A stretch of DNA of 64,000 bases from Corynebacterium occultum (lineage in GTDB: Bacteria; Actinomycetota; Actinomycetes; Mycobacteriales; Mycobacteriaceae). The position numbers were made by a program, and so were the translations under genes. Location of the stretch: positions 1,364,001 through 1,428,000 of the forward strand of contig NZ_CP046455.1 of NCBI RefSeq assembly GCF_009734425.1. The letters run 5' to 3'. This document shows, in pieces, positions 3,851-60,035 of the stretch. Numbering within the stretch: position 1 is the first letter of the stretch; each line of letters opens with the position of its first letter. The notes under the pieces were generated by a model. That model did no database searches. It was not told the DNA's origin and worked only from the letters and a program-made list of their open reading frames with translations.

Positions 3851-3864
3851 GCTTATCGACGCCC
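3851..3864 (+). repeat. GCTTATCGAC motif, copy 1
   Basis: Intergenic copy in the full 14-base form GCTTATCGACGCCC. See the finding on this dispersed motif. Confidence 0.7.
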
Positions 3865-3924
3865 CCCGTTCCCGGCCCGAGGTGGGGGGTGCGTTCTCAG
3901 GTTTCTGGCCTAAGATCTGAAGAT

Positions 3925-4401
3925 ATGGACCTTCATCCGAATGTGCAGCCCTATGAGTTCCTTCTCGGCACCTGGACCGGCGAAGGAAAGGGAATCTATC
4001 CCACCATCAGCAAATTCTCCTACACCGAGACCCTGAGCTTTGCCGCTATCCCGGGCAAACCTTTCCTCCGCTATGAGCAGAAGACCATGGGTCCGCAGGG
4101 GCCGATGCATACCGAGGTCGGTTATCTCCGCCCGGTGGCCGAGGATCGCCTGGAGCTGGTGGTCGCCCAGCCGACCGGACAGACTGAATTGCTGGAAGGC
4201 GAGGTCCGTTCGGAGGGAAGGCTTTTCGTCTTCGAGAAATCAGTGGTGAAAAGTTCCGCTACCGCCAAGCAGGTGGATGCCACGAAGCGGACCTACACCT
4301 TCAATCCGGAGCGCACCGAGATGCTCACCGCATTCGGTATGGCCGCCGTCGGTCAGCCCATGCAGCAGCACCTGGAGAGTCGATTGCTCAAGGGGTCGTA
4401 G
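3925..4401 (+). CDS. Nitrobindin-like heme-binding beta-barrel protein
   Basis: This 158-residue protein belongs to the FABP-like/THAP4 (DUF1794) family, whose members include nitrobindins, small ferric-heme beta-barrels proposed to isomerise peroxynitrite. Support comes from the N-terminal block YEFLLGTWTGEGKGIYP with the GxWxGxG motif, the FxYxExLxF strand, and the C-terminal HLESRL segment, whose His is the likely heme ligand by family analogy. The start at ATG 3925 is backed by a TAAGAT -10 element 8 nt upstream (leaderless). Binding of heme in this protein is inferred from the family. Confidence 0.8.
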   Translation: MDLHPNVQPYEFLLGTWTGEGKGIYPTISKFSYTETLSFAAIPGKPFLRYEQKTMGPQGPMHTEVGYLRPVAEDRLELVVAQPTGQTELLEGEVRSEGRLFVFEKSVVKSSATAKQVDATKRTYTFNPERTEMLTAFGMAAVGQPMQQHLESRLLKGS

Positions 4402-4513
4402 GAATTGAAGAGCAGCAGGGAGAACCTGCTAGAGATCTTCCCGGTGTGGCTGCAGGCCGCCGCAGAGGTGGTTCACTCTCTCCGAGACGCTATTTTTCTT
4501 CCCGGACTGCCGG

Positions 4514-4882
4514 GTGGCGGTGGGAGGGGAGATCTACCTCAATAATGAGAAGCTGAAGGATTTCCCGGTGCCCCTGCTCGTTGACCGGGACGGTCTGATC
4601 GATGATCTGCTGGCCCATGAACCCGGCACCTTCTTCTACCCCGGCAATACCCTCAACTTCACATCCACCTGGGAAGAGGCGACTCCAGCGCAGGTGAAGG
4701 ATTACCTCTGGTACACATTGGAGAACTCTCTCTTCCTTTTCAGCTTCAGGGTGGAGTTCGAGGTCGACATGAACCGCAGGAACCCCGAGAATTCTCCCTA
4801 TTCTCCCTGTTACAGCTGCTATGTGGGGTCTTTTTCGGAAGGCGTTGAACCGAAGTCCAGATCGGTGGGCTGGGGGAGATGA
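4514..4882 (+). CDS. Hypothetical protein, possibly a broken gene
   Basis: The 122-codon frame from GTG 4514 reads sensibly (GGEIYLNNEKLKDFPVPLL, then a Phe/Tyr-rich middle). The same frame is open upstream to 4433 and still looks protein-like (RWFTLSETLFFFPDCRVAV) with no start codon. A neighbouring frame from TTG 4405 (LKSSRENLLEIFPVWLQAAAE) could be its true N terminus after a frameshift near 4460. The last third is Ser/Arg-rich and may be non-coding. No family is recognised and no good ribosome site is seen at 4514, so this may be a decayed gene. Confidence 0.35.
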   Translation: MAVGGEIYLNNEKLKDFPVPLLVDRDGLIDDLLAHEPGTFFYPGNTLNFTSTWEEATPAQVKDYLWYTLENSLFLFSFRVEFEVDMNRRNPENSPYSPCYSCYVGSFSEGVEPKSRSVGWGR

Positions 4883-5023
4883 TGGTGAAAGGATCAACCC
4901 TCTGAGATACCTCTCGACTGGGGGCGGTTAGGGGGTGCATGTCCGAAGAGTCATGCGGCCCACACGCCTGATGTAGCATCATATTTTTCTCCCAGATTTT
5001 TCACAGAAAGGCCGATAGGTCCT

Positions 5024-6142
5024 ATGCGTTCGACACGCCCCTACCTTATTTTCTCCGTGTCCCTGCTCGCCGCTACGACTCTTTCCGGGTGCACCAGCTC
5101 TGGTGAGAGCACCCAGGTGACCTCCTATGTCACGGAAACCCTCACCAGCGCGGCGGACGAAGGTTCCTCGCAGGATATGGCAACCGGTGCATCTGAGCCG
5201 TCTGGGGCAGCCCCTTCGGTGAACGCAGTTGTCGGGGCGTATTCGGCGGTTCTGGATAACCCAGGTCAGTACTCCTACACCGGAGGTGCGGATTATCCCC
5301 TCAACGGCGAATACCAGTACGCCCTTGTGGAAATGACCGGCGGGGGTTTCCCGGAACTTCTGGTTCAGGCGATGAGCGCTGAACACATCAACCCGATCCG
5401 GGTGTTCAGCACCACTGATGACGGCACCCTGGCATCACCCCAGGACACTCTGGTCAGCGGAGCCGCCGGGGCAGGTGGCTACCGCGCCGGAATCTTTGGT
5501 GCCCCTGAGGGCAACCGCCTCTTCCAGGCGGAGTGGCATTCGGTCCAACCGGGGATGTCCATCAGGGGGTTTGTCCTCCAGGGGGATCGTCTGGTCTCCA
5601 ACGGTGAGGAATGGGAGGATGACCAGCTTGCGCCTTCCGATGCCTTGGCCACCATCACCTTCCACCCACTCAATAACCGGGGCCCGCTGGAGACCATGAC
5701 ATCTGGCGCTGGCACGGGAAATGCCAGCAGCGGAGTGGAGGCGAATGCAGGTGCCCCCAGCCCCACCCTCGCACCTTCGGCCAGCACCGGAAATACTGCG
5801 GCAGGTACTGTTCGGGTGTTGACCGCACCGGAACTGGCTCAGCTCCAGGGGCATGCTCAGACCCCCAACGGTGAGGGGCCCGAACATCGTTTCGCCATGT
5901 TCATCTTCGATTCCCCCACGGCGTTCACCGCTAAAGCTTCGGGTGACCGCGGAGCCCTGCAGGAGCGGGAGGCATCCATGGTCCTGATCGGATCACATAC
6001 CCCGCACACCTCCAATGCCATCGGCTTTGACCTGGAAGGACAGCACCTGACCTTGTCTTTCGATCAGAATGGCTGCTGGTTTCCTTCGGATGCTTCGCTG
6101 CCACTCGGACAGCCCCGTTGCTCTGACTTCACTCAGCAATAA
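5024..6142 (+). CDS. Putative secreted lipoprotein
   Basis: The 372-residue product has a lipoprotein signal peptide: positively charged start, hydrophobic core, and lipobox LSGC with Cys23 as the lipidation site, so it should sit on the outer face of the plasma membrane. A Ser/Thr-rich linker follows. The rest contains two parts separated by another Ala/Ser/Gly/Pro-rich linker (about residues 225-265). The N-terminal part has a FFPELLVQAMS-like strand region; the C-terminal part ends with a possible disulphide pair (CWFPS...PRCSDF). GAAAGG lies before ATG 5024. I recognise no family. It is flanked by single-gene units, so no operon partner is evident. Confidence 0.75.
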   Translation: MRSTRPYLIFSVSLLAATTLSGCTSSGESTQVTSYVTETLTSAADEGSSQDMATGASEPSGAAPSVNAVVGAYSAVLDNPGQYSYTGGADYPLNGEYQYALVEMTGGGFPELLVQAMSAEHINPIRVFSTTDDGTLASPQDTLVSGAAGAGGYRAGIFGAPEGNRLFQAEWHSVQPGMSIRGFVLQGDRLVSNGEEWEDDQLAPSDALATITFHPLNNRGPLETMTSGAGTGNASSGVEANAGAPSPTLAPSASTGNTAAGTVRVLTAPELAQLQGHAQTPNGEGPEHRFAMFIFDSPTAFTAKASGDRGALQEREASMVLIGSHTPHTSNAIGFDLEGQHLTLSFDQNGCWFPSDASLPLGQPRCSDFTQQ

Positions 6143-6371
6143 CTCCCCTGCGGTAGACAGCCTTTTGGGGTGCATGAGTCCACTGCCAGGTCTGGCCAGA
6201 GGGATATAGCTCCTGGCATTGAGTGCTGGGGGTGAAATCGGCGACCCTGTTCTGAGGGGTGGAACACTCCTGCTCCGGGTTTCCTCCATCATGGGACAGT
6301 GAGATGCAACCTGGGTGATGCAGGATAAGATCCTGCTCCGAAGAATTTCTCTCGAAGGAAGGTAATCCACC

Positions 6372-6962: not shown

Positions 6963-6968
6963 GGGGGT

Positions 6969-8477
6969 TCAGCTCTCCTCGGTTACTGAGCTTCTCCGGG
7001 GTTCCGGCGGTGCGGGCATTTCAGTGGGCCCCTGATCCAGCCGGAAGGGTGGGTAATCATCCCGGAGCAGCAGTACGTAGGTGGAAACCCGGTAGACCCA
7101 TCGGTTCAGCCCCATGACCAGATCAAAGATCCCTCGGCGGTAAGTCCCGGTGAACAGCAGTACCACTGCCGCGATGAGCACCAGAATTCCTAGCAGGGAC
7201 ATACCCCAGCCGGTGTTGTCGCGGACCGAACCGATTCCGACAGCCCCGCCGCTACCGGTGAGGATCCCCACGATGAGCAGGTGTGGGATGGCCAGCAGCC
7301 ACCACTTCACCAGCACCAGGCCCCGGGAGAGTCGTTCGGGATAGTCCACATCCAGCTCCGCGGGGTAGTCGGCCGCCGCTAGGGTGAAGGGGGGATACCG
7401 GTCGGTACCCAGGGCTGAGTAGGCATAGAATCCCACCCGCCAGCTCCAGCGCAGCACCCCGACGCTGAAGGAGAACCAGGAACGGGGATAGCGGCCGGTG
7501 AACAGTATCGCCAGTCCGGCGGCAATGGTGGTGATCATCAGGGCAAACCACAACAGACCCAGAATGAAGTAGTGCGGGATCGCCAGCAGCCACTTGATCA
7601 ACCACAATCCCCGGGAAAGCGCAGGGTCCAGATGACCGCTGAAGGCCAGGGGACAGGGGCCTGGCAGATCTGTTCCTCGCTGGGTGCGCTTATCGACGTC
7701 GCGGCCCAGCCCGGCGGTGCCGAAGAGGAGCAGGGGAATGCCAAGGAGCAGCCCCACCAATCCGGCGATCAACGTTCCGGGGTTAGCGAGTCCAAGCAGT
7801 TCCGTGCGGGCGCCAACCTGTAGATCTGCCCACACCGGCCGGGTGCCGTCCGCATTCATCACCACCAGAGTCCACTGGCCCGGCTGCAGGTCGAAAGTGA
7901 TCTCCTGGGTGTCGGTACCTGATGCTGAAATCGCCCAGAAATCTTGTTCACCCGGCGGTGTTGCAGGTTGAATCCCCGACACCTCCCGGAGTGCCTCCCG
8001 CTTATCCGACGACCAGGACCATTGTGCCGGATCCGGTCCCATACCTGACCAGGGCAGGTCTTCGAGAACGGAGTAACCAACACCCTCAAGATAGGAGGAG
8101 GTGTCCTCGGAGTCAGCGATACCGAGGAAAATTTCCTGGCCGGGGATGATGGACGTCACCCTGACCTGGATGCTGGCCAGTTCCTCAAGTGGTGGGACAC
8201 CGGAAAGCCCCGCATCGTCGGGGGCAAACACCGCGGATGCGGTGGCGATCGCATACCCGGCGCTCTGGAGTTCTTCGGAACTGCTGGAGATATATCGCCC
8301 ATCCTGCTGGGCTGACTCGGCACTCATGAGCACCGCCCCTATGATGGTCAGACTCAAACCCATTGAGGTGAGGAGAACCCCCACTACGAGCAGGACCCAG
8401 TTCAGCGGTTTCATACGTGGAGGTTCTTCGGTGGATGAGGGATGTGGACTGATCGGATATGTCGGATCTGCATCCAT
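6969..8477 (-). CDS. DUF4389 membrane protein
   Basis: The 502-residue membrane protein has one N-terminal helix (about residues 25-50), an extracytoplasmic domain of about 180 residues, another helix (about 235-258), and two tandem DUF4389 units. The first is LSRGLWLIKWLLAIPHYFIL...GRYPRSWFSF...YPPF; the second is LSRGLVLVKWWLLAIPHLLI...GTYRRGIFDL...YPPFRL. Such proteins are common and uncharacterised in actinobacteria. ATG 8477 has AGAGGAAC upstream; a start at Met22 is possible. The gene is convergent with the isochorismatase-fold gene and divergent from corA. Confidence 0.8.
   Translation of the reverse strand: MDADPTYPISPHPSSTEEPPRMKPLNWVLLVVGVLLTSMGLSLTIIGAVLMSAESAQQDGRYISSSSEELQSAGYAIATASAVFAPDDAGLSGVPPLEELASIQVRVTSIIPGQEIFLGIADSEDTSSYLEGVGYSVLEDLPWSGMGPDPAQWSWSSDKREALREVSGIQPATPPGEQDFWAISASGTDTQEITFDLQPGQWTLVVMNADGTRPVWADLQVGARTELLGLANPGTLIAGLVGLLLGIPLLLFGTAGLGRDVDKRTQRGTDLPGPCPLAFSGHLDPALSRGLWLIKWLLAIPHYFILGLLWFALMITTIAAGLAILFTGRYPRSWFSFSVGVLRWSWRVGFYAYSALGTDRYPPFTLAAADYPAELDVDYPERLSRGLVLVKWWLLAIPHLLIVGILTGSGGAVGIGSVRDNTGWGMSLLGILVLIAAVVLLFTGTYRRGIFDLVMGLNRWVYRVSTYVLLLRDDYPPFRLDQGPTEMPAPPEPRRSSVTEES
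7688..7697 (+). repeat. GCTTATCGAC motif, copy 2
   Basis: Exact 10-mer inside the DUF4389 gene, read there as DVDKR on the minus strand. Confidence 0.6.
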
Positions 8478-8767
8478 GATGGTTCCTCTGGAGGGGAGAG
8501 TTACTGAAATTGAATGATGAGTCGGGGCTGGTGTGCACTATTCAACACCATTTCAATTGAATTTCCTTATCATATTCAAATACTAATTCTATCAGTCTCT
8601 TGGTTTGGGGTAAAGGGGTAAACCAGATCCCAGGGACTCTCCTGAACCCAGGGGAAGGTTTCCAGGTTCCCCGACAGCCACCGGCCCAGTGGATAAGTAA
8701 TCTGGACCAGACCAGGGGCAATTCCACAGCAGTGCCGGATCTCATTCAGCCCAGGAAAGGTGAATTC

Positions 8768-9784: not shown

Positions 9785-9791
9785 TACCCGC

Positions 9792-9811
9792 GCCGGGACA
9801 AACTTCCCGGC
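9792..9811. terminator. hairpin between convergent genes
   Basis: A 7-bp stem (GCCGGGA pairing with TCCCGGC) with a 6-nt loop lies between corA and the convergent lipoprotein gene. It has no clear T tract in either direction, so the call is weak. Confidence 0.4.
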
Positions 9812-10477: not shown

Positions 10478-10864
10478 TTTGATCACGCTCCTTGCGTGGA
10501 AAGCCTAGATTGCTAAAAGCGATGTGGAAACCTTATATGTCTAATTGAGATGCTTCTGTCACCAAGTCGTCAACGCGAAAAGCGGGGGGTGATTCTTCGG
10601 CAGGGCCGCAATTTGCAGAGGGATGACACATGCCCATCGTTGGTGGAGTACTGAACGTACCGCGGGGAGACTTCTCCTCACCCCGGATCGAGAGACGGGA
10701 ACGTAGCGGCGCTCGCGATGGCGGCCCGGGGAAGGTGAACTAACTGGTGGGTAAGTCCGGTTCAACAGTCCTCACCAGCCGGATATCCTCGCTCGGCTCG
10801 AATGCGGACCTTCCCCACCACGGGGCCGTCGATAAGCACCCCCGAACGGAGTATCCTGTGGGTT
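10478..10864. other. Intergenic region before uvrB
   Basis: About 390 bp between divergent genes with no convincing ORF. It holds one copy of the GCTTATCGAC motif (10828-10837, reverse) and the uvrB -10 element TATCCT at 10852-10857, which predicts a leaderless uvrB transcript starting about 8 nt downstream. No clear LexA box was seen here. Confidence 0.5.
10828..10837 (-). repeat. GCTTATCGAC motif, copy 3
   Basis: Intergenic reverse-orientation copy about 28 bp upstream of the uvrB start. Confidence 0.6.
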
Positions 10865-12964
10865 ATGGCTTTCGCTGCTGAACATCCCGTCCTGTCCCAT
10901 TCCGAGCACCGCCCGGTCGGCGAGATCGAACGTTCCGATGCGAAGTTCGAGGTCATCTCGGAATTTCAGCCGGCCGGTGATCAGCCGGCCGCCATCAAGG
11001 AGCTCGATGAGCGTCTGCGCCGTGGTGAGGAGGACATTGTCCTGCTCGGTGCCACCGGTACCGGTAAGTCGGCGACGGCCGCCTGGCTGATCGAGAAGCA
11101 GCAGCGCCCCACCCTGGTGATGGCACCGAATAAGACCCTGGCCGCCCAGCTGGCCAATGAGCTGCGCCAGCTGCTGCCCAATAACGCGGTGGAGTACTTC
11201 GTCTCCTATTACGACTACTACCAGCCTGAGGCGTATATCGCGCAGACGGACACCTACATTGAGAAGGACTCCTCGATCAATGAGGATGTGGAGCGTCTGC
11301 GGCACTCCGCGACATCATCCCTGCTGTCAAGGAGGGATGTCGTGGTGGTCTCCTCGGTGTCCTGCATCTACGGTCTGGGTACCCCGCAGTCCTACCTGGA
11401 TCGTTCCGTGGTGCTGAAGGTGGGGGAGGAGGTGGAACGTGATCGTTTCCTGCGTCTGCTGGTGGACATCCAATATGACCGCAACGACATTTCCTTCACC
11501 CGTGGCGCTTTCCGTGTCAAGGGGGACACGGTGGACATCATCCCGGCCTATGAGGAGCTGGCGGTGCGGGTGGAATTCTTCGGTGATGAAGTGGACGCCC
11601 TGTACTACATCCACCCCCTGACCGGTGACGTGATCCGCCAGGTGCAGGAGATCCGCATCTTCCCCGCCACCCACTATGTGGCCGGCCCGGAGCGCATGGA
11701 GAAGGCCGTGGCTGACATCAAGGCGGAGCTGGCGGATCGCCTGGCCAGCCTGGAGAACCGCGGCAAGCTGCTGGAGGCGCAGCGGCTGCGGATGCGCACC
11801 GAATATGACCTGGAGATGATTGAGCAGGTGGGTTTCTGCTCTGGCATCGAGAACTACTCCCGACATATCGACGGCCGCCCGGCAGGGACTTCCCCGGCTA
11901 CATTGATGGATTATTTCCCGGAGGATTTCCTCACCATCATCGATGAGTCCCATGTGACTGTCCCGCAGGTCGGCGGCATGTTCGAGGGCGATATGTCCCG
12001 TAAACGCAACCTGGTGGACTTCGGTTTCCGCCTACCCTCCGCCCTGGATAACCGCCCTTTGACCTGGGAGGAGTTTGAGGAACGCAAGGGTCAGTGCGTG
12101 TACATGTCCGCGACACCGGGCAAGTATGAGATGGCCGCCTCCGGTGGTGAGTTCGTGGAGCAGGTGATTCGACCCACCGGCCTGGTTGACCCGAAGATCA
12201 CCGTCAAACCGACCAAGGGCCAGATCGATGATCTGATCCACGAGATCCGGGAGCGCACCGCCAAGCAGGAGCGTGTCCTGGTGACCACCTTGACCAAGAA
12301 GATGTCGGAGGACCTCACCGAGTACCTCATGGAGAATGGCATCCGGGTGCGTTACCTCCACTCTGATATCGATACCTTGCAACGCGTGGAGCTGCTGCGT
12401 CAGCTGCGGCTGGGGGAGTATGACGTGCTGGTGGGCATCAACCTGCTGCGTGAAGGCCTTGACCTGCCTGAGGTGTCGCTCGTGGCCATCCTCGATGCAG
12501 ATAAGGAGGGGTTCCTGCGTTCCACGACCTCCCTGATCCAGACGATTGGCCGTGCCGCCCGAAATGTCTCCGGTGAGGTGATCATGTACGCCGACAAGAT
12601 CACCGACTCCATGAGCAACGCCATCGAGGAGACGGATCGACGCCGTGAGAAGCAGGTCGCCTACAACAAGGAGCATGGCATCGACCCGCAGCCTCTGCGC
12701 AAGAAGATCGCCGACATCCTCGACCAGGTCTATGAGAACAATGCTGAGGCGGGGGAGAGCTCCGCGGGTGGCGACGCTGCGGTCATCGAGAAGCCGGACA
12801 TCTCCAACATGCCCGCGGCACAGGTCCAGAAGCTTATCGACGACCTGAGCGCCCAGATGGGTGCCGCGGCCAGGGAGCTCAAGTTCGAACTGGCGGGCCG
12901 ATTACGTGATGAGATCGCCGAGCTGAAGAAGGAACTGCGGGGCATCAAGGATGCGGGTATCTGA
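10865..12964 (+). CDS. uvrB: Excinuclease ABC subunit B
   Basis: UvrB is the damage-verifying helicase-like subunit of nucleotide excision repair; it is loaded by UvrA and recruits UvrC. The 699-residue product has the P-loop GATGTGKS at 62-69, the beta-hairpin region with [11 protein letters not shown], helicase motifs ([31 protein letters not shown]), and a C-terminal UVR domain ([22 protein letters not shown]) that contacts UvrC. ATG 10865 is chosen from the leaderless-type TATCCT -10 element. uvrA lies about 10 kb downstream rather than in the same operon. Confidence 0.97.
12832..12841 (+). repeat. GCTTATCGAC motif, copy 4
   Basis: Exact 10-mer inside uvrB, read as KLIDD in the UVR domain, where the residues are partly constrained. 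Confidence 0.5.
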
Positions 12965-20170: not shown

Positions 20171-20773
20171 TTACCAGCGTCGGGCGTACCACTCGTCCAG
20201 GTGCGGACGTTCCGCACCTAGCGTGGTGTCCTTGCCGTGGCCGGGGTGGACCACCGCATCATCGGGGTGGGGCTCGAAGAGATGGGTCTTGACATCATTG
20301 AAGAGACGAACGAAGTCACCTTCGCTGGAGGTTTTACCCAGGCCACCGGGGAAGAGACTGTCACCGACGAAGAGATGGGTGGTGCCCTTGATCTCGGCGG
20401 TGATGGCTGCACCGCCCGGGGTGTGGCCCCGCAGGATGCTCACCGGGAATTCATGGCCGGCAAACGGCAGTACATCGCCTTCCTGCAGCTCCACATCCGG
20501 GGCGACAGGCAGGGCGGGGGCATCCAGGAAAGAGCCGTAGTGGGTGGCGCCGGTGGCCTCGAGCACCTCCTTCAGGGCCCGGGTGTGGTCAGCGTGACGG
20601 TGGGTGGTCAGCACCGCGGTGATCTTGACCCCGGCCTCCTCGGCGAGTTTGAGGAGCGCGGGGGCGTTGTCCGCGGCGTCGATAAGCAGTCCTTCTTCGC
20701 CGGCGGCGAGGAGGTAGCAGTTATTGTCCATCTCGGACACGGAGACACGGTGCAGGGAGAGTTCATTGCTCAT
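20171..20773 (-). CDS. MBL-fold metal-dependent hydrolase (glyoxalase II-like)
   Basis: This 200-residue metallo-beta-lactamase-fold hydrolase has the metal-binding motif THRHADH (His58, His60, Asp62, His63), later metal-ligand blocks RGHTPGG and FVGDSLFPGGLGKT, and HPGHG near the C terminus. The pattern is that of the glyoxalase II-like subgroup, probably a thioester hydrolase; the substrate is unknown. A TACGCT -10 element 7 nt before ATG 20773 indicates a leaderless transcript. It is divergent from uvrA with about 134 bp between starts. Confidence 0.88.
   Translation of the reverse strand: MSNELSLHRVSVSEMDNNCYLLAAGEEGLLIDAADNAPALLKLAEEAGVKITAVLTTHRHADHTRALKEVLEATGATHYGSFLDAPALPVAPDVELQEGDVLPFAGHEFPVSILRGHTPGGAAITAEIKGTTHLFVGDSLFPGGLGKTSSEGDFVRLFNDVKTHLFEPHPDDAVVHPGHGKDTTLGAERPHLDEWYARRW
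20678..20687 (-). repeat. GCTTATCGAC motif, copy 5
   Basis: Exact 10-mer inside the MBL-fold gene, read as LLIDAA on the coding strand. Confidence 0.6.
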
Positions 20774-20907: not shown

Positions 20908-23763
20908 GTGGCTGAGCGTCTCATCGTGCGAGGAGCACGTGAACACAACCTGAAGAATGTCGATGTCGACCTTCCCCGTGACGCCATGGTGGTGTTCACC
21001 GGGCTCTCGGGTTCCGGTAAATCCTCGCTTGCCTTCGACACGATCTTCGCTGAGGGGCAGCGCCGTTATGTGGAGTCCCTGTCCAGTTACGCCCGTCTCT
21101 TCCTGGGGCAGATGGACAAACCCGATGTGGACCTCATCGAGGGTCTTTCCCCGGCGGTGGCGATCGACCAGAAGTCGACCAACCGCAACCCGCGTTCCAC
21201 GGTGGGCACCATCACCGAGGTCTATGACTACCTGCGGCTGCTCTTCTCCCGCGCCGGTAGCGCGCACTGTCCGGTCTGTGATGCCAAGGTGGAACGCCAG
21301 ACCCCGCAGCAGATCGTCGACCAGGTCCTGGCCCTGGAGCCGGGCCTGAAGTTCCAGGTCCTGGCGCCGGTGGTGCGTACCCGCAAGGGTGAGTTCGTCG
21401 ACCTCTTCGCCGACCTGGCGTCCCAGGGTTACTCTCGTGTCCGGGTGGACGGACAGGTGCACCAGCTTTCTGATCCGCCGAAGCTGGAGAAGCAGATCAA
21501 GCACGATATCGACGTGGTGGTCGACCGTCTCCAGGTCAAGGAATCCCAGAAGCAGCGCCTCACCGAATCGGTGGAAACCGCCCTCGGCATCGCCGATGGT
21601 GTGGTGGTGCTTGAATTCATCGACCTGGCTGAGGATGATCCGCAGCGGGTCCGTCGTTTCTCGGAGAAGATCTCCTGCCCCAACGGCCATGCCCTGGCCC
21701 TGGATGAGCTGGAACCGCGGGCCTTCTCCTTCAACTCGCCTTACGGCGCCTGCCCGGACTGTGATGGCCTGGGCACCCGCACCGAGGTCGACATCGAATT
21801 GATCATCCCGGACCCGGATGCCCCGGTCACCGACTCGGTGCAGCCTTGGAACTCCAGTCCCAACCACAGCTACTTCGCCAAGCTGATCGAGGGTCTGGCC
21901 AAGGCCATGGACTTCGAGCCGGACACCCCCTACTCCTCCCTGAGTGCCGCCCAGAAAAAGGCGCTGGTTTATGGCACCAAGAAGGAGGTCAGTGTCCGCT
22001 ACAAGAACCGCTATGGCCGGGTCCGCAGCTGGACCGCCCCCTTCGAGGGTGTGATGGGCTGGATCAGCCGCAAGCTGGAGGAGGCGGAATCCGAGAAGGC
22101 CAAGGAACGTTTCCTGGCCTACACCCGTGAGATCGCCTGCCCCACCTGTGAGGGCACCCGCCTCAAGCCGGAGATCCTGGCGGTACGCCTGGCGTCGACC
22201 TCCGAGGGTGAGCTCTCCATCGCCGGGCTGACCGCACTGTCCATCGAACGCGCCGCCCATTTCCTGGACACCCTGGATCTGGGGAAGCGGGAGAAGATCA
22301 TCGCCGGTGCCGTGCTCAAGGAGATCCAGGCCCGCCTGCGCTTCCTCAACGATGTGGGCCTGTCCTACCTCACCCTCAACCGGGCGGCCGGCACGCTTTC
22401 CGGTGGTGAGGCGCAGCGCATCCGCCTGGCCACCCAGATCGGTTCCGGCCTGGCGGGCGTGCTCTATGTCCTTGATGAGCCCTCCATCGGTCTGCACCAG
22501 CGTGATAACCAGCGGTTGATCGCCACCCTGAAGAAGCTGCGCGACCTGGGCAACACCCTCGTTGTGGTGGAACATGATGAGGACACCATCAAGTCCGCCG
22601 ACTGGCTGGTCGATATCGGACCCCGGGCCGGTGAGTACGGTGGCGAGGTGGTCTACCAGGGTGAACCCAAGGGCATTCTCACGGCAGAAAACTCCCTGAC
22701 CGGCGCCTACCTTTCCGGGCGCCGCACTCTCGGTGTGCCGGAGAACCGCCGTGAGATCGACCCCGAACGGGTGCTCAAGGTAGTGGGTGCCCGCGAGAAT
22801 AACCTCCGCGACATCGATGTCACTCTGCCCCTGGGTGTGTTGACCTGTGTCACCGGTGTCTCCGGCTCCGGCAAGTCCACCCTGATCAATCAGATCCTGG
22901 CCAAGCAGCTGGCCAACACCCTCAACCGGGCCCGCCAGGTCCCCGGACGCGCCAAGCGGGTCGAGGGCCTGGACCACCTGGACAAACTGGTGCAGGTGGA
23001 CCAGTCACCGATCGGGCGCACCCCGCGTTCCAACCCCGCCACCTACACCGGTGTCTTCGACAAGATCCGCAACCTCTTCGCCGAAACCAGCGAAGCCAAG
23101 GTGCGTGGCTACAAGGCGGGGCGTTTCTCCTTCAACATCAAGGGTGGGCGCTGTGAGGCCTGCCGGGGTGACGGCACCATCAAGATCGAGATGAACTTCC
23201 TGCCGGACGTCTACGTCCCCTGCGAGGTCTGCAACGGTGCCCGCTACAACCGCGAAACCCTCGAGGTCCGTTACAAGGGCAAGAGCATCGCCGAAGTCCT
23301 CGACATGCCCATCTCTGAAGCTGCCGGGTTCTTCGAACCGATCAGCTCCATCCACCGCTACCTGGCCACGCTTGTCGACGTCGGTTTGGGCTATGTCCGC
23401 CTGGGGCAGGCGGCCACCACGCTCTCCGGCGGTGAGGCGCAGCGCGTCAAGCTCGCAGCTGAACTGCAGAAGCGTTCCAATGGCCGCACCATCTACATCC
23501 TTGATGAACCGACCACCGGCCTGCACTTCGAGGACATCCGTAAACTGATGCTGGTCATCCAGGGACTGGTGGACAAGGGCAACTCCGTCCTGGTCATCGA
23601 GCACAACCTGGACGTGATCAAGTCCGCTGACTGGGTCGTGGATATGGGGCCGGAGGGTGGTTCCGGTGGTGGCACCGTCGTCGCGGAGGGCACCCCGGAG
23701 CAGGTCGCCGAGGTGGAGGGCTCCTACACCGGTAGCTTCCTCAAGGAGATGCTCGCTCGCTGA
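20908..23763 (+). CDS. uvrA: Excinuclease ABC subunit A
   Basis: UvrA is the damage-sensing ATPase of nucleotide excision repair and loads UvrB. The 951-residue product has two ABC ATPase modules: P-loops GLSGSGKSS near the N terminus and GVSGSGKST in the second half, each with the LSGGEAQR signature. It also has zinc-binding Cys pairs ([15 protein letters not shown] with [10 protein letters not shown]). The family N terminus is (M)[16 protein letters not shown], which fixes the start at GTG 20908. A candidate LexA box sits upstream. The gene is divergent from the MBL-fold hydrolase and convergent with the CDF transporter. Confidence 0.97.
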
Positions 23764-24827: not shown

Positions 24828-26726
24828 TCAGTTGCTCGGGGAAGACACCTCGGCCGCCCCCTTCGGCTGCTCAGGTTCAGTGCTACGGCGGCTGCGGATG
24901 GTGGCGATCGCGAGCAGCACCACACCACAGACCAGGAAAGCAAAGACCCGGGGCACCCCACTCAGAGCGCTCAGGTCGAAGAACACCAGCTTCACGGTGG
25001 CGGACACCGCCAGAATCAACCCGATGCCCAGGGCAGTGTCATTGTTCAGCGGGTTCCGGGCCAGCAGCACCCAGGCTGCCAGGACCATCCAGATGATGGA
25101 GACCAGGGCATGACCGAAGTAGTAGCCGGTCCAGGGCTGAACATCACCGCCGAGGTAGAAGTCGACATTGGTGCTCAAGGTGACGACCACCAGCATGGAG
25201 AGATAGAGCGTCGCGATGCCACCCGACACCTGCTCCCAGGTGTCGAAGATACTGAAGACCCGGGCGCTGAGCAGCACCCTGGTGATGAAGGCCGCCAGCA
25301 ACAGCGCCAGAATGATGCTCTGGTACCCGGAGATGACCAGCGGCTCCCGGAAGGCCGCCCCGTAGCCCAGGGAAGCGGTGATCAGTAAGGTGGCGGCCAG
25401 CCAGCAGACCCAGGGGGAACGGCCGAAACTCTCCTGCCGGGACAACCACCACACCATGAGGATCCCCACGCCGAGGAAGACCATGATGACTGAGGGGCCC
25501 TCCCACTCCTGCAGGGGGAGGGGACTGTGCTGGGTCAGCCACCACAGCGGGAGGAAGGTCAAGGGCAGGGCACTGAGGGAGAGGACGGTGCTGGCTCGCT
25601 CCCCGTACTTCAGCGCCATCAGGAGGAAACCGAAGGCGGCGATGGGGGAGAGCCACACCCAGTAGGTGTCATCGGCGTTGAGGGAGATCAGTGGCAACAG
25701 CGCAGCAGCCAGACCCAGTTGAATCAGGCGGTGGGACAAAGTGAGTGGCTCCTGCTGGGAGATCCACTCATTGGTGCTCTGCCGCGGCCGGGGCAACTGT
25801 TCCCCTTCCTCGGGTAGCGGATCCTGGAGGTTGACCCACAGCAGGGCGAGGGCGGAGACGGTGGCCAGGATGGCGCCGAAGGTGTTGAGGTTGTCCTGCC
25901 AGGTGCCGAGCAGGGACAGATGCAGCAGCACCATGGCGAGGGCGGCGATCATGCGGGTCCAACCCCAGTTGGAACGGTAGGTGGAGGCCAGGGTGATCAG
26001 CGGCAGGCTGGCGATCGCCCAGGTATCGGGCGCCGCGTCGAAGTATGTCAGGGCCAGGATTCCGCCGATCGCGGCCACCACATAGGAGAGCCACTCCATG
26101 TGGAAGTAGCGGGCCATGCCCAGGTAGGCGCTGTGAATGATGATGAGCACGACAGCACCGAGCAGTTCCGGCCACCACTCCAGCCAGTGGACCAACGTGA
26201 CGGTCAGCAGCGAGTAGATCAGATAGGAGGTGATGATCAGCGCATTGGCACCGGTGGTATTGGGCTTCTCCAGCATGATCTGGCGGATACCGATGCCCAG
26301 CAGAATGGTGGCGAGAAGAGCGGTGCCGATCACCCTGGCCAGGGGGCCGAGCAACCCCAGCTGGATGGCCAGGGCAATCAGGAGGGCCACACCGATCAGG
26401 GTGATCACCGCGCCACCGATGGCGATGCCGCGCATGACCTTCTGCTCCAGCGTCAGCGGCGGCTTCCGCGGTTTTGTCGGGGGTGGGGGAGCCTGTCTGG
26501 GTGGCGGTGGTCCCTGGCGGACCGTGGGATAAGGCCGGGGTCCGGCCAGTGCAGGCATCGGGGCCTGCTGTGGTGCAACCGGGGTCAGGTGGACGGTGGG
26601 CGTCGATAAGCTCTCTTCGGTGAGTGCTGCCAGGGATGCCTTCACCTCTGCGATGGCATCCTCGGCCGCATTCAAGCGCGCTAATGCGGTCCTCAGCTCG
26701 AGTCCGCTGATCCTGTGCTCACTCAT
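24828..26726 (-). CDS. DUF2339 multi-pass membrane protein
   Basis: This 632-residue protein has an N-terminal heptad-like coiled coil (LELRTALARLNAAEDAIAEV), a Pro-rich linker (about residues 60-92), and about 16 hydrophobic segments filling the rest. This is the usual make-up of DUF2339 proteins. Family function is unknown; the many helices suggest a transporter or envelope scaffold. A TAGCGT -10 lies 8 nt before ATG 26726, again predicting a leaderless mRNA. The gene is followed closely by the CDF transporter on the same strand. Confidence 0.82.
   Translation of the reverse strand: MSEHRISGLELRTALARLNAAEDAIAEVKASLAALTEESLSTPTVHLTPVAPQQAPMPALAGPRPYPTVRQGPPPPRQAPPPPTKPRKPPLTLEQKVMRGIAIGGAVITLIGVALLIALAIQLGLLGPLARVIGTALLATILLGIGIRQIMLEKPNTTGANALIITSYLIYSLLTVTLVHWLEWWPELLGAVVLIIIHSAYLGMARYFHMEWLSYVVAAIGGILALTYFDAAPDTWAIASLPLITLASTYRSNWGWTRMIAALAMVLLHLSLLGTWQDNLNTFGAILATVSALALLWVNLQDPLPEEGEQLPRPRQSTNEWISQQEPLTLSHRLIQLGLAAALLPLISLNADDTYWVWLSPIAAFGFLLMALKYGERASTVLSLSALPLTFLPLWWLTQHSPLPLQEWEGPSVIMVFLGVGILMVWWLSRQESFGRSPWVCWLAATLLITASLGYGAAFREPLVISGYQSIILALLLAAFITRVLLSARVFSIFDTWEQVSGGIATLYLSMLVVVTLSTNVDFYLGGDVQPWTGYYFGHALVSIIWMVLAAWVLLARNPLNNDTALGIGLILAVSATVKLVFFDLSALSGVPRVFAFLVCGVVLLAIATIRSRRSTEPEQPKGAAEVSSPSN
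26602..26611 (-). repeat. GCTTATCGAC motif, copy 6
   Basis: Copy inside the DUF2339 gene with the 14-base form, read as SLSTP, a different frame from the copies read as LID or VDK. Confidence 0.6.
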
Positions 26727-26815: not shown

Positions 26816-27586
26816 ATGCCGTCGAACCCGCATCATCCGGAAGAGTCGGGAGGCTCCGGGTTTTCTGACCCTGCTTCCGAAGTCCGGTTCCGATATGCGG
26901 CGCCTTCCCCGACGAATCCCTGGGATGGCCGCCGTTATAAGGTCGCGCGCAAACGCAACCACAGTCGTATCCTCGCCCTGCTGATCCTGATTTTCGGCCT
27001 CTTCATCCTGGGCTCGGCGATGCTCTACGCCCAGCAGGTCAGCAGCGCCGACCAGGCCTCCCCACCCAGCTTGACGACGCCCGCGCCTCCCGCGCCCCCG
27101 GCACCCAGTGAAGCTCCGGCGCCCCCGTCCGCGGAAACCAGCATCATCGTGGAAACCTCCACGGTGGTCATCGTCTCCAGTGCCCCTGCGGAACCCACAC
27201 CGGTGGTGGCCGAGGTGTCTGCCGACACTCCGGTCACCGAGGAAAAAACGGTGGCAAAGAGTGCCCCGGCAACAAGCGCAGCTGAATCCAGCGCCCCGTT
27301 ATACAGGGCCCCAGCCGCAGCGAAGCAGTGTGCTGCAAATGTGAACTGGCGGATCTTCAGCGCCACCGAGGCCACCAGCTGCCCCTTCGCTGAGAATGTT
27401 GCGATCGCCATGAAGGGAAGTGCCGGCACCAAAGCTGCGCAGCAGCTGCGGGTCGCCAGTCCGGTGACCGGCAAGGAGTACCTGGTTGACTGCCAACCAG
27501 CTGGTCAAGGATCCTTCGTCTGTGAAGGTGGGGCAGGGGCGCAGGTGGTGCTGGAACACCGTCATGATCTCCGCCCGGGTTATTGA
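26816..27586 (+). CDS. Membrane-anchored protein with Ala/Pro linker
   Basis: The 256-residue protein has a cytoplasmic N terminus of about 50 residues, one membrane helix (about 52-72, ILALLILIFGLFILGSAMLYA), a long Ala/Pro/Ser/Val linker, and a C-terminal extracytoplasmic domain of about 90 residues with Cys pairs (KQCAANVNWRIF, TSCPFAENV, VDCQPAGQGSFVCEGG). The domain layout suggests an envelope-exposed module on a cell-wall-spanning stalk. TAGAAT 6 nt before ATG 26816 supports a leaderless start. It is divergent from DUF2339. No family is recognised. Confidence 0.7.
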   Translation: MPSNPHHPEESGGSGFSDPASEVRFRYAAPSPTNPWDGRRYKVARKRNHSRILALLILIFGLFILGSAMLYAQQVSSADQASPPSLTTPAPPAPPAPSEAPAPPSAETSIIVETSTVVIVSSAPAEPTPVVAEVSADTPVTEEKTVAKSAPATSAAESSAPLYRAPAAAKQCAANVNWRIFSATEATSCPFAENVAIAMKGSAGTKAAQQLRVASPVTGKEYLVDCQPAGQGSFVCEGGAGAQVVLEHRHDLRPGY

Positions 27587-34006: not shown

Positions 34007-34122
34007 GACCCCGCCCCCGCGGTCTGGGCGTCGCAAAGCATGCCCCTGGGTGGCGATAAAATGCCGGGTCCGGGGTGGTGGGTATGATGATCGGGTCAAC
34101 AGTGGGAATCAACGAGTAGTGA

Positions 34123-39042: not shown

Positions 39043-40491
39043 GTGATGAAGTTGGAATTTCACGAGTATCTGAGAATCGCTCAGAAATACTGGGTGCTCA
39101 TAATGGCCATGGCCATTATTGGGCTCGGAATGGGTGCGGGAGTCACTTATCTACTGCCGCCTAAATATGAATCCCATACCCAGTTATATGTTTCTGTGGG
39201 GACGAATGAGGGAAGCACGGGGGACCTTGTACAAGGGGCCACATTCGCCCAGCAGATTGTGAATAGCTATGTCGATATCATTGAAAACGGCGGGGTATTA
39301 GACCCGGTTGTGGAGGAACTGGGACTCGATATGTCGGGTAGTGAACTGGCCCGGCACATCGAGGCCGATTCACCCCCGGAGACAGTGCTGATCAATATCT
39401 CCGCCACCAACCCCAACCCGGACCGGGCGGTGGCAATCGCCGATGCGGTCCGTGCCAGCTTCATCAAATTCGTCCAGACCGAATTGGAAACTGATGGGGT
39501 GTCCGGGGGCAGCCTGGTGAATCTGACCACCACCCATACCGCGGAGGTAGCGGAGAAGCCCATCAGCCCTAACCTGCGGAATAACCTGATCATGGGGTTG
39601 CTGCTGGGCTTCCTACTGGGCTTTGGCATCGCACTGCTGCGTAGCGTCCTCGATAACCGCCTTCATTCCACCGAGGACATAGAGCAGATCAGCGATACCC
39701 CGGTCATCGGTGAGATCTTCAATGACCCCAATGCCGCCAAGTCCCCGGTTCTCTTCGGGGGAGAATGGCAAAACCCCCGGGCGGAGGCCTTCCGGGTTCT
39801 CCGAACCAATCTGCAATTCCTCAACGTTGACTCCGCCAGCCGCATTTTCGTCCTGACCTCGGCCAACCCGGATGAGGGCAAGACCACCACGGCGATCAAC
39901 CTGGCGATCGCGCTGGCCCAGAACAACGCGCGGGTGGCACTGCTGGAATGCGATCTTCGACGACCCAAGATCTGTGAGTACCTGGGCATGGAGTCCGGTG
40001 TCGGGCTGACAGATGTACTCATCGGTAGTGCTGAGCTTCCGGATGTCATCCAGAAGTGGGGGAGGCAGGGGCTCCATGTCCTGCCGGCCGGCCAAATTCC
40101 ACCGAATCCGAGTGAGCTGCTTGGTTCCGATGAGATGGAGAAGACCCTGGCACAGCTCAGGGAAGAGTTTGACTATGTCATCATCGACGCACCCCCGGTT
40201 CTGGCGGTGACCGATGCCGCGGTCGTCGCCAAGCATGCCACCGGGGTGTTGTTGGTTGCCGCCGCCGGATCCACCTCCCGACCCTCCCTGCGTGAAGCGC
40301 TTCGACTGCTCGACACCGCTGGTTCCAATGTGCTCGGGCTGGTCCTGACCATGCTGCCCCTCAAGGGGACGCGCACCTACAGTTACACCTCCAGCCAGCC
40401 CATCCCTCCCCCGACGCTTGAATTTGCGGAGGACTCTAAAACATCTGCTCTGAGCAGGAAGAGTCGAAGGGGAGCCCACCATGTCGTCTAA
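39043..40491 (+). CDS. Wzz/BY-kinase polysaccharide co-polymerase
   Basis: This 482-residue protein fuses a Wzz-type chain-length domain to a bacterial tyrosine kinase. Two membrane helices (about 17-38 and 181-201) flank an extracytoplasmic loop with the YxSxxQLYVS-type start. The cytoplasmic kinase has Walker A SANPDEGKTT (273-282, Lys280), Walker A' LLECDLRRP (300-308) and Walker B YVIIDAPP. The C-terminal tail has only a few Tyr (RTYSYTSS), fewer than in Wzc. It starts at GTG 39043 or ATG 39046 with no strong ribosome site. Its stop overlaps the phosphatase start. By family it regulates export of a surface polysaccharide. Confidence 0.9.
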   Translation: MMKLEFHEYLRIAQKYWVLIMAMAIIGLGMGAGVTYLLPPKYESHTQLYVSVGTNEGSTGDLVQGATFAQQIVNSYVDIIENGGVLDPVVEELGLDMSGSELARHIEADSPPETVLINISATNPNPDRAVAIADAVRASFIKFVQTELETDGVSGGSLVNLTTTHTAEVAEKPISPNLRNNLIMGLLLGFLLGFGIALLRSVLDNRLHSTEDIEQISDTPVIGEIFNDPNAAKSPVLFGGEWQNPRAEAFRVLRTNLQFLNVDSASRIFVLTSANPDEGKTTTAINLAIALAQNNARVALLECDLRRPKICEYLGMESGVGLTDVLIGSAELPDVIQKWGRQGLHVLPAGQIPPNPSELLGSDEMEKTLAQLREEFDYVIIDAPPVLAVTDAAVVAKHATGVLLVAAAGSTSRPSLREALRLLDTAGSNVLGLVLTMLPLKGTRTYSYTSSQPIPPPTLEFAEDSKTSALSRKSRRGAHHVV

Positions 40492-44161: not shown

Positions 44162-45303
44162 GTACGGCCCTGAAACAGAACACCGCGAGGCAGCTGCCCA
44201 CCCGACGCCGTCACCTGGCGCTGAAGCGAATATTCGATACGACCCTCGTGCTGGCCAGCGCCCCGATCACCCTTCCGGCCGCCACCCTGACCGCGGTCAT
44301 GGTCCGCTGGAACATGGGCTCCCCGGTGCTCTTCCGCCAGCAGCGGGTAGGCCTGGACGAGCAGACCTTCGAGCTGCTGAAATTCCGCTCCATGCTGCCG
44401 GAGAAAGACACCGAGGGAAACTCCCTCAGCGAGGGCGAAAGGATCACCACCTTCGGCAGACTGCTGCGCAGCTCAAGCATGGATGAGCTGCCCCAGCTCC
44501 TCAATGTGCTGCGCGGAGAGATGTCACTGGTCGGGCCGCGACCCCTGCTGCTCAACTATCTCCCGTACTACCGGTCCGCAGAACGTGCCCGCCACTCCGT
44601 CCGGCCGGGTATCACCGGTGCGGCCCAGGTAAACGGCAGAAATAACCTCGACTGGGAGGGGCGGCTCCTCCTCGACGCCCACTACGCCCAAACAGCTGGG
44701 CTGGGGCAGGACCTTAAAATCCTCTGGCAGACCTTCACCAGCGTGCTCCGCAGTGAGGGCACCGTGGCGGACTCCTGGGAGCACTTCGAGGACTTCGATG
44801 ACTACCGCAGCTACCCAGTCACCGATACCCACGCCCTGCGGCGTTTTGAACCCCGCGATGTGGACACCCTGGCCGGTTGGCTGCAGCACACCAAGGTCCC
44901 GGCAGCAATGAGGCTGTCCGACACCACCACGGTAGGTATCGGGGACTGGCTCCGGGACAACCGACAAGATCCTGATTGCCGCACGCTGGCGGTTTATGAC
45001 CACCAGGCCCGGGTACTGCGCGGGATCACCGGATACCACACCCCGACACCAGGAAGCCTGCCCCAGATCTTCCTGCTCCCCGAAGCAGGGCAGGAGGACC
45101 CGAACTTGGCTGACACCATCCTGGGTCTACTCCTGAAATACCTCAGAAAACAGGAGAACAGCACCGGAGCCACCGCAGAAGTGGACGGCACCCGGCGCGG
45201 CAGCACCGGGCGTCGAGAAGCAGCGGAGCTTTATCGCAGACATGGATTCCAGCCGGCCGGGGAAGACCCGGCCGACGTGGAGAGGTGGGAAATCAGGTGG
45301 TGA
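44158..45303 (+). CDS. Phosphoglycosyl transferase fused to GNAT-like domain
   Basis: Residues about 1-205 form a monotopic phosphoglycosyl transferase (bacterial sugar transferase, PglC/WcaJ core): re-entrant helix KRIFDTTLVLASAPITLPAA, the catalytic pair Asp109-Glu110 in SSSMDELPQLLNVL, and LVGPRP. It loads a sugar phosphate onto undecaprenyl phosphate. Residues about 228-381 resemble a GNAT acyltransferase (RRFEPRDVDTLAGWL start, and AAELYRRHGFQPAGE, the typical C-terminal LYxxxGF motif). In the bacillosamine route the acetyltransferase PglD is a separate protein of another fold, so this fusion is unusual. It overlaps the next gene by 4 nt. Confidence 0.85.
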   Translation: MSTALKQNTARQLPTRRRHLALKRIFDTTLVLASAPITLPAATLTAVMVRWNMGSPVLFRQQRVGLDEQTFELLKFRSMLPEKDTEGNSLSEGERITTFGRLLRSSSMDELPQLLNVLRGEMSLVGPRPLLLNYLPYYRSAERARHSVRPGITGAAQVNGRNNLDWEGRLLLDAHYAQTAGLGQDLKILWQTFTSVLRSEGTVADSWEHFEDFDDYRSYPVTDTHALRRFEPRDVDTLAGWLQHTKVPAAMRLSDTTTVGIGDWLRDNRQDPDCRTLAVYDHQARVLRGITGYHTPTPGSLPQIFLLPEAGQEDPNLADTILGLLLKYLRKQENSTGATAEVDGTRRGSTGRREAAELYRRHGFQPAGEDPADVERWEIRW

Positions 45304-48885: not shown

Positions 48886-50048
48886 ACTCCCGAATTCTGC
48901 TCTCCCAGGCCACCGTCACTGAAACAGAGGAAAACGCCGTCCTCCGTGCTCTCCGCTCAGGTTGGGTCGCCCCCGTCGGACCCGAACTTGAGGCCTTTGA
49001 AAAGGAGATGGCTGAACGTACCGGTGTCAGCCATGCTTTAGCGCTTTCCTCTGGGACCGCGGCACTCCACCTCGCACTGCTCCGCATGGGAGTGGGCCCC
49101 GGTGACCGCATCCCGGTTCCCACCCTGACCTTTGTCGCAACCACCAACGCCATCGCTTATACGGGTGCCACCCCGGTGTTCGTCGACTGCCTGCCTGATG
49201 GAAATATCGACCCCGTTCTTCTCCTCCACAGCATCGACACCCTCCAGGCCGCAGGGCATCGGGTTCCCGTGGCCATCACCGTCGACCTGATGGGACGCTG
49301 CGCCAACTACCAGGAGATCGAGGCCCCGCTCCAGGAGCGGGGGGTTGAACTGCTTGCCGACGCCGCGGAATCTCTCGGTGCCACTCTCAATGGCAGGGCC
49401 GCCGGTTCTTTCGGCAAGGCTGCGGCCATCTCCTTCAACGGAAACAAAATCATGACCACCTCCGGTGGTGGCATGTTGCTCAGCAATGATGCTGAACTGA
49501 TCGACACCGCCCGCTACCTTTCCACCCAGGCCCGCCAGCCTGCCCCCTGGTATCAGCACACCGAAATCGGTTATAACTACCGGCTCTCCAATATCCTTGC
49601 GGCGCTCGGCCGAGCTCAGCTTGGCAGACTTGATCAGCTGATTCAGCGACGCACCGAAATCCGGGACCGCTACGCCGAAGCTGGCGGGGAGCTGGGCTAC
49701 CGGCTCCTCGGGGATGTTCCGGAGACCGCCGAACACCGCGAGAACGCCTGGTTGAGCACCATCGTTCTCGATGAAGCCAGCCCAGTGACCCCGAGCGAGG
49801 TGATCAAGGCCCTGGAACAGGAGAATATCGAGGCACGTCATATCTGGAAACCCATGCACCTGCAGCCCCTGCATGCGGGTTCCCTGGGTTTCCTCAACGG
49901 TGTCTCAGAGGATCTTTTCGCCCGTTCCGTCACCCTGCCCAGCGGTGCTGGTCTCAGTGAGAGTGATATCGAGCGGGTGATTGATTCCCTGCGGCGGCTC
50001 CTGACCGGGGGTCGACGCCGACAGGTTGCGGCCGTCAGAGTCGGGTAG
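48882..50048 (+). CDS. DegT/DnrJ-type sugar aminotransferase (PglE-like)
   Basis: This 388-residue fold-type I PLP enzyme of the DegT/DnrJ/EryC1/StrS family has the PLP lysine Lys189 in SFNGNKIMTTSGGGML, the form typical of bacillosamine-pathway aminotransferases. It also has ALALSSGTAALHLAL and DAAESLGATLNG. It should transfer an amino group from glutamate to the 4-keto sugar made by the CapD-like dehydratase. GAAAGG precedes ATG 48882, which overlaps the 59-codon ORF. It is the last clear biosynthetic gene of the cluster. Confidence 0.92.
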   Translation: MNSRILLSQATVTETEENAVLRALRSGWVAPVGPELEAFEKEMAERTGVSHALALSSGTAALHLALLRMGVGPGDRIPVPTLTFVATTNAIAYTGATPVFVDCLPDGNIDPVLLLHSIDTLQAAGHRVPVAITVDLMGRCANYQEIEAPLQERGVELLADAAESLGATLNGRAAGSFGKAAAISFNGNKIMTTSGGGMLLSNDAELIDTARYLSTQARQPAPWYQHTEIGYNYRLSNILAALGRAQLGRLDQLIQRRTEIRDRYAEAGGELGYRLLGDVPETAEHRENAWLSTIVLDEASPVTPSEVIKALEQENIEARHIWKPMHLQPLHAGSLGFLNGVSEDLFARSVTLPSGAGLSESDIERVIDSLRRLLTGGRRRQVAAVRVG

Positions 50049-54082: not shown

Positions 54083-56275
<2,193 letters not shown>

Positions 56276-56303
56276 AGTGCCGCAGACAGAGGAAAGGAAT
56301 ACT

Positions 56304-56816: not shown

Positions 56817-56894
56817 GCCCCCGCTAGACTGAAACATTGAACAAGACTGGGATTCCCGCTGCCGTGGAATCACCACACCTGATAGGAGACCTAC

Positions 56895-58094: not shown

Positions 58095-59564
<1,470 letters not shown>

Positions 59565-59582
59565 TCAGAACTGAAGCATGAG

Positions 59583-59621
59583 AACCGGGGGTGGCGAGCA
59601 CGATCCACCCCCGGTTTTCTC
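59583..59621 (+). terminator. terminator after argH
   Basis: A perfect 12-bp stem (AACCGGGGGTGG pairing with CCACCCCCGGTT), 10-nt loop, then a T-rich end. Confidence 0.88.
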
Positions 59622-59840
59622 CTGTTGCGGGGCTCTCAGTCCTGGTCTTCCCCTCTTCGGCTCCGGCCGACCATTGATTCGCTGAAGCTGCCACACAGTG
59701 AAAGCGAGGAAATCCGCACCGCCATCGGGGAGAACAATGTCCGCGCCCTGGCGAACCACCGTGACATGCTCCGCCTGACTTCCTGGCCGGGACAGGGTCT
59801 CGATCAGCCGGGTTCCGGCCGCCAGGTAAGATGAGCCACC

Positions 59841-60017
59841 ATGAGTCTTGATCCGAAATTGCTGGATGTCCTCGCCTGTCCCAAGGACAAGGGCCCGCTG
59901 GAGTATCTGGAAGATGAGCAGGTCCTGGTGAATAAGCGACTGAAGCTCGCCTATCGCATCGACGATGGGATCCCGGTGCTGCTCATCGACGAAGCCACCC
60001 CCTGGCCCAAGCCCTAA
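59841..60017 (+). CDS. Trm112-family small protein (UPF0434/YcaR-like)
   Basis: This 58-residue protein starts [20 protein letters not shown], has the central [16 protein letters not shown] and ends DEATPWPKP, the pattern of bacterial Trm112-like proteins. In other lineages Trm112 activates RNA and protein methyltransferases; bacterial members are little known. Only one Cys (Cys13) of the usual zinc-site pair is present, as in many actinobacterial versions. TAAGAT 8 nt before ATG 59841 supports a leaderless start. It lies 94 bp upstream of tyrS. Confidence 0.85.
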
Positions 60018-60021
60018 GCGC

Positions 60022-60035
60022 GCTTATCGACGCCC
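60022..60035 (+). repeat. GCTTATCGAC motif, copy 8
   Basis: Intergenic 14-base copy GCTTATCGACGCCC, 5 bp after the Trm112 stop and upstream of tyrS, closely resembling copy 1. Confidence 0.7.

Follow-up and report, generated by a model that had tools for sequence, protein, structure and literature searches.

A gapped, genome-wide DNA word with three dialects in Corynebacterium as a candidate DNA-uptake sequence

To our knowledge, DNA-uptake words are known only from the Neisseriaceae and the Pasteurellaceae. The neisserial DNA uptake sequence (DUS) occurs in dialects, lies in the core genome and is conserved above its flanks, as described in two papers (PMC3630211, PMC2397512), and a minor pilin, ComN/PpdA, was proposed in 2025 as the reader of the uptake signal sequence (USS) of the Pasteurellaceae (PMC12616744). 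Here we describe a short word repeated throughout the genome of Corynebacterium occultum, which was first noticed as a 10-mer, GCTTATCGAC, in a window of 64,000 nt (positions 1,364,001 to 1,428,000 of contig NZ_CP046455.1). The window lies within a 3.11-Mb contig, and the same assembly has a second contig of 0.109 Mb. This 10-mer turns out to be the most frequent version of a degenerate word, GCTTNNCGACGNC (the D1 word), which is spelled differently in other lineages of the genus. Our analysis makes it fairly probable that the word marks self DNA in the manner of the DUS, with dialects as in the Neisseriaceae.

The D1 word resembles the DUS in several respects: a short, non-palindromic word is present in many copies on both strands, its dialects are one or two bases apart and follow phylogeny, it is conserved above its flanks, and ComEC is present. 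However, the DUS is bound by the minor-pilin receptor ComP, whereas Corynebacterium has a Tad/Flp pilus rather than a type IVa pilus, and none of the nine com/tad proteins compared emerged as a receptor. The Corynebacterium word is also gapped and shows no excess of inverted pairs, and a role in uptake is proposed here from sequence. The USS shares the genome-wide and strand-symmetric distribution but differs in the word itself and in phylum; moreover, one-mismatch forms are rare here (a mean of 2.8 per 444 kb, compared with 97 for the word) and are not similarly rare for the USS. Chi, the FtsK-orienting polar sequences (KOPS) and the architecture imparting sequences (AIMS) are likewise short genome-wide chromosome words, but the D1 word has no strand polarity and RecC is absent. 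The cyanobacterial HIP1 is highly iterated throughout the genome as well, but it is palindromic, unlike the Corynebacterium word with its switching dialects. The members of Corynebacterium are high-GC Gram-positive bacteria whose envelope contains mycolic acids, and an uptake word would be unexpected in this group.

In unbiased counts over 444 kb of the C. occultum genome, pieces of the word outranked all other 9- to 12-mers. Varying each base in turn resolved the word as GCTT-NN-CGACG-N-C, a 13-mer with ten fixed and three free positions, of which 97 copies lie on the two strands of the 444 kb. The spacer is two bases only; spacers of 0, 1, 3 and 4 bases gave 1–3 copies, and the 30 variants in which a single fixed base is wrong total 84 copies, with a maximum of 10 for any one of them. 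Because the NN spacer is most often AT (then CT or GT), the first-pass annotation picked the AT form. The whole genome contains 642 copies of the D1 word (333 and 309 on the two strands, approximately one per 4.8 kb), compared with 31 copies of its reversed control. The 10-mer occurs 281 times and its reversed control twice, in agreement with the claim of the first-pass annotation that the word is genome-wide. A 14-mer extension has 82 copies (control, 0), all of which are on the chromosome, the large contig.

The abundance was compared with codon and composition nulls in a 484-kb genome sample, for which we used a crude gene caller of our own and in which 4 kb (loci L041 and L110) were counted twice. 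The sample holds 103 D1 copies, of which 83 are genic and 20 are intergenic (intergenic sequence constitutes 15.7% of the sample, p = 0.28). Synonymous-codon shuffles within the crude coding sequences gave 7.84 ± 2.43 genic copies, with a maximum of 13 in 100 shuffles, whereas 81 were observed. Similarly, 19 intergenic copies compare with 0.10 under a third-order Markov model (maximum of 1 in 50). The 10-mer was observed 26 times and expected 2.4 times on average from synonymous shuffles (maximum of 7 in 100); codon-aware chance, the explanation that the first-pass annotation had named as fatal to its claim, is thus exceeded. Fifty-one of the 83 genic D1 copies share one frame, CTT NNC GAC GNC, and the known uptake-word families likewise favour one reading frame (PMC2346458).

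We counted the word in 201 Corynebacterium genomes, which are a draw from the larger genus. The D1 copy number ranges from 3 to 1,563 per genome and falls into two main classes. With an arbitrary boundary of 65 copies between D1 and none, 140 genomes were assigned to D1, 13 to D2, 6 to D3 and 42 to none of these. The D1 genomes carry 83 to 1,563 copies, with at least 200 in 134 of them, 185 in one and 83–114 in the remaining five. Their strand totals are 51,335 and 51,623. The strand counts of individual D1 genomes are more equal than chance (the standardised difference has a standard deviation of 0.79), which does not arise from inverted pairs; the relatedness of the genomes may account for it. 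No comparable D1 enrichment was found in 246 genomes from other genera of the order, where the counts were near or below the reversed control and at most approximately 2.3 times it. In four of these genomes (G360, G439, G267 and G317), D1 words outnumber reversed controls by about two to one, as with 186 to 91 in one of them.

The second dialect, D2 (GCTTNNCGATGNC), was found by k-mer scans in five of ten word-poor genomes and is rich in 13 of the 201, with 167–1,090 copies. The third, D3 (TCTTNNTGACGCC), was hinted at by a gapped scan of the word-poor genome G054. The search for D3 was limited to 55 genomes, among them all 48 that lack D1 and D2; it has 154–187 copies in exactly six of these 48 and 0–9 in the other 49 of the 55. 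Scans of genomes without D1 or D2 for further spellings within three changes of the word, covering 52–92 kb per single genome and 24–324 kb per pooled set, yielded nothing convincing beyond D3, at a depth that rare dialects would escape. The dialects follow phylogeny: on a 51-genome helicase tree, in which two D3 genomes were still labelled as none, the D1, D2 and none labels require 7 changes, compared with 21.7 when shuffled. The D2-rich genome G142 (1,090 copies) also contains 146 D1 words, well above background, which is possibly another recent dialect switch. Two Corynebacterium loci were present among the 80 returned by a contig scan with generic ATPase peptides, both from metagenome-assembled genomes (MAGs); most of the other loci came from different genera and phyla. 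Locus L229, from Corynebacterium sp. MAG S30M_Sa_12, has 13 D1 words in 21 kb; no other named contig was found to carry the word. Locus L256, from a C. urealyticum MAG, has none in 7 kb. The tad locus of this MAG shares 91% identity over 4.5 kb with the tad locus of G107, a member of the genus surveyed here, and this match, together with a remark in the first-pass annotation, is the ground for assigning the genus to Corynebacterium.

The change from one dialect to another can be followed in close relatives. In the tree of the helicase adjoining the tad genes, a D2 trio (G006, G105 and G152) is nested in an otherwise D1 clade. Across the com and tad loci, the same aligned word mostly reads CGACG in the D1 sisters and CGATG in the D2 trio, and a few D1 sisters retain the D2 form at single sites. 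We compared one D1 genome (G004) with one D2 genome (G006) over 64.7 kb of alignment at 80.5% identity. The 11-base core is shared by the two genomes at 20 positions; at 18 of these the D1 genome has C where the D2 genome has T, one position is C in both and one is T in both. The count excludes ten words of G004 that have no CGAYG counterpart in G006, together with six aligned positions at which just one of the two genomes has the GCTT half. At 290 control CGAYG sites outside words, the corresponding numbers are 38 C to T, 53 C to C, 182 T to T and 17 T to C, so that the switch exceeds the controls both given C (Fisher test, 1.8e-5) and given T (6.4e-12). The control set overlaps in sequence with that of the word count in the named loci. 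Seven D1 sisters hold 95–122 D2-spelled copies, compared with a median of 26 in D1 genomes, which looks like the residue of an older dialect. The word is also conserved, as the first-pass annotation had proposed to check at aligned sites: at 18 sites in seven D1 sisters, 1.9% of the fixed positions are changed, compared with 6.0% of the flanks. At the phase corresponding to the third codon position of the commonest frame, the values for these sisters are 3.0% for the word and 10.3% for the flanks.

The sharpness of the word, its genus-wide dialects and the concerted switching of its sites call for a trans-acting reader. The second contig of C. occultum is probably a plasmid. Its whole 108,872 bp contain a single D1 copy, compared with approximately 22 expected from the chromosomal density; this one contig is the entire sample counted outside the chromosome. 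Corynebacteria, like Gram-negative bacteria, must cross a second outer layer. The actinobacterium Micrococcus luteus uses Flp pili and a comEA-comEC operon for transformation (PMC8467076). Because the word matches those of the Neisseriaceae in its symmetry, its near-absence from the second contig, its dialects and its conservation, and because of the M. luteus precedent and the outer layer, we favour an uptake-type word. A surface or envelope protein would bind the word on free DNA, and uptake of the word-bearing DNA would follow, most probably through the Tad/Flp pilus together with ComEA and ComEC. The incoming DNA would be recombined, and the resulting biased transformation (molecular drive) would spread and maintain the word. 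A shift in the preference of the reader would then lead to the sites being rewritten one by one in the new dialect. We lean towards such a system, which would extend uptake words beyond the two Gram-negative families and would work via the Tad/Flp pilus across the mycolic-acid outer layer. Of the readings offered by the first-pass annotation, a genome-wide functional word stands, and an uptake or recombination signal fits best; the FtsK-type site does not hold.

Several observations weigh against uptake. All 42 word-free genomes have comEC and a ComEA match, and TadA exceeds the cut-off in 40 of them. No coevolution with dialect was found in nine com/tad proteins from 21–24 genomes (partial r from −0.30 to 0.09), and no column separates the dialects in three pilin-like proteins. 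Close inverted pairs are not in excess (18 close pairs of all kinds, with approximately 15.3 expected), and a 33-kb stretch of the window that includes a suspected glycan island is not poor in words (7 copies, average density). The switch is documented in one pair of lineages, the word is known here as a pattern in DNA from which its function is deduced, and natural transformation in Corynebacterium is unreported among the literature matches listed. These matches, obtained for competence, transformation and over-represented motifs with most subscription papers outside reach, include nothing on such a word in the genus. Those to the 10-mer and its complement are, by title, chance or primer matches.

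The machinery itself is nearly universal. C. occultum has a tad locus (L110) and a comEA-comEC-holA locus (L109); gene names beyond TadA and ComEC were assigned by eye and similarity. Across the 201 genomes, comEC is present in 200 and a ComEA profile match in all, although the match is very weak in three (G113, G138 and G200). Of 80 selected genomes, which include 48 without D1 or D2, 73 have a TadA that scores above the curated cut-off. Since word-free genomes are equally equipped, the com/tad machinery does not track the word, and the presence of Tad, ComEC or ComEA was rejected as an on/off switch. A split in PF00437 scores suggested loss of Tad in word-free genomes, but this was also rejected: tadA is present in 41 of the 42 (40 over the cut-off), many of them lower-scoring. 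Single columns that separate the dialects occur in CpaE, TadB and HolA, a pattern that many columns could give by chance. The last tad gene, by eye an Rv3655-like minor pilin, is the most divergent between D1 and D2 sisters relative to the spread within D1 (97.2% compared with 73.0% identity). As a reader it was left weak, with partial r values of 0.018 in 24 genomes and 0.081 in 21.

Some variation in the competence genes was seen among individual genomes. Three of the D1 genomes with the lowest counts (G013, G077 and G123, 104–114 copies) have weak ComEA scores (E values of 4e-28 to 4e-49), and the combination may reflect decay of competence. G043, G047 and G174 have weak ComEA scores too, with normal word counts. 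G200, the sole genome without a comEC match and one of those with a very weak ComEA, has only 174 D2 words; its completeness is 90%. An apparent truncation of ComEA in G120 was rejected, because the gene runs across the edge of the stretch examined. The ComEC frame is approximately 470–570 amino acids long in C. occultum and many word-bearing genomes and approximately 700–810 in many genomes without the word, although both groups contain exceptions.

A possible, although unlikely, alternative is that a chromosome-organising or regulatory DNA-binding protein binds the word, that selection for a chromosomal function maintains it, and that a change in the protein recodes the sites. The 82 14-mers are evenly spread along the chromosome (Kolmogorov-Smirnov p = 0.33), and this, the restriction to the chromosome in C. 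occultum, the conservation above the flanks, the concerted dialect switch and the independence of the word from com/tad genes all agree with it. On the other hand, the intergenic enrichment noted above is not significant, the range of 83 to 1,563 copies among D1 genomes is hard to square with a structural need, and 42 of the 201 genomes do without the word. We are doubtful of the corresponding broader conclusion, in which the word would be of a novel genome-wide type that has nothing to do with uptake and whose protein reader can change its preference and so recode hundreds of sites in concert.

A Chi-like hotspot of recombination, with a helicase-nuclease as its reader, is distinctly improbable. 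The spacing of one word per 4.8 kb is similar to the density of Chi, and Chi sites are lineage-specific. However, RecC (PF04257) was found in none of the 201 genomes, with a positive E. coli control, which bears on a Chi read by RecC, and RecBCD-Chi was rejected for this reason. The strand skew that the first-pass annotation had proposed to look for is also lacking, since 39–41 of the 82 14-mers are on the side favoured by polarity for four assumed termini. In addition, the gapped 4-N2-5-N-1 architecture is unlike Chi, which is read on single-stranded DNA. We give very little weight to the word being the target of a DNA methyltransferase or of a restriction-modification system. In favour, the motif is sharp and protein-like with lineage-specific variants, but the word is tenfold above the synonymous null, whereas such sites are usually neutral or avoided; none of the literature matches listed is, by title, a Corynebacterium methylome. 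Terminator-type inverted pairs were rejected as well, the 18 close pairs (approximately 15.3 expected) comprising 10 inverted and 8 direct ones. The KOPS-like option raised by the first-pass annotation would suit a genome-wide, chromosome-restricted word, but it is so improbable for want of polarity, given the 39–41 of 82 14-mers on the expected side and the strand counts of 333 and 309, that we rejected it. Finally, a codon or composition artefact can be dismissed despite the shared frame of 51 of the 83 genic copies, because the codon-aware null is exceeded tenfold, the intergenic density is at least the genic one, and control words remain at background.

If the word does tag DNA for uptake, natural transformation with self-recognition would be, or would have been until recently, a trait of many Corynebacterium species, and a route for gene exchange among them would exist. 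Uptake words would then have evolved independently in this genus, with three dialects, and the D1/D2 switch in close relatives would open dialect change to testing. Should uptake prove to be the wrong explanation, sites that are rewritten in concert still demand a trans-acting reader, which is now open to hunting.

In the window, all eight copies of the 10-mer claimed by the first-pass annotation are present (mean of 0.03 and maximum of 1 in 100 shuffled windows), as are the four exact 14-mers, and our crude gene calls gave the same split of three intergenic and five genic copies. One of the listed coordinates is slightly off: the copy placed at 59398 on the minus strand actually spans 59388–59397. 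The statement that the 33 kb including the glycan island lack the word holds for the GCTTATCGAC spelling but fails for the full GCTTNNCGACGNC. Seven of the 16 D1 words of the window lie between 26612 and 59387, a span of 32.8 kb, at a density equal to the genome average. The form GCTTATCGACGCC occurs five times: in intergenic sequence at 3851..3863 (plus strand), 26599..26611 (minus) and 60022..60034 (plus), within a gene in sense at 20675..20687 (minus), and within a gene in antisense at 59385..59397 (minus). Outside the 32.8 kb, the other words are GCTTATCGACGTC at 7688..7700 (plus; genic, antisense), GCTTATCGACGGC at 10825..10837 (minus; antisense, at one end of a called gene), GCTTATCGACGAC at 12832..12844 (plus; genic, sense, in the L-x-D frame) and GCTTGTCGACGTC at 23370..23382 (plus; genic, sense). 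Within it, GCTTGACGACGCC at 27069..27081 (plus) and GCTTTGCGACGCC at 34027..34039 (minus) are intergenic. The words in genic sense orientation are GCTTGTCGACGGC at 37319..37331, GCTTGCCGACGCC at 49352..49364 and GCTTGTCGACGCC at 58553..58565, all on the plus strand, and those in genic antisense orientation are GCTTGGCGACGAC at 40222..40234 and GCTTCTCGACGCC at 45209..45221, both on the minus strand.

Other repeats were seen in two genomes. A DnaA-box-like 11-mer, CCTGTGGATAA, has six copies in a 60-kb sample of G143, and overlapping 11-mers of one repeat occur 6–7 times in 60 kb of G014.

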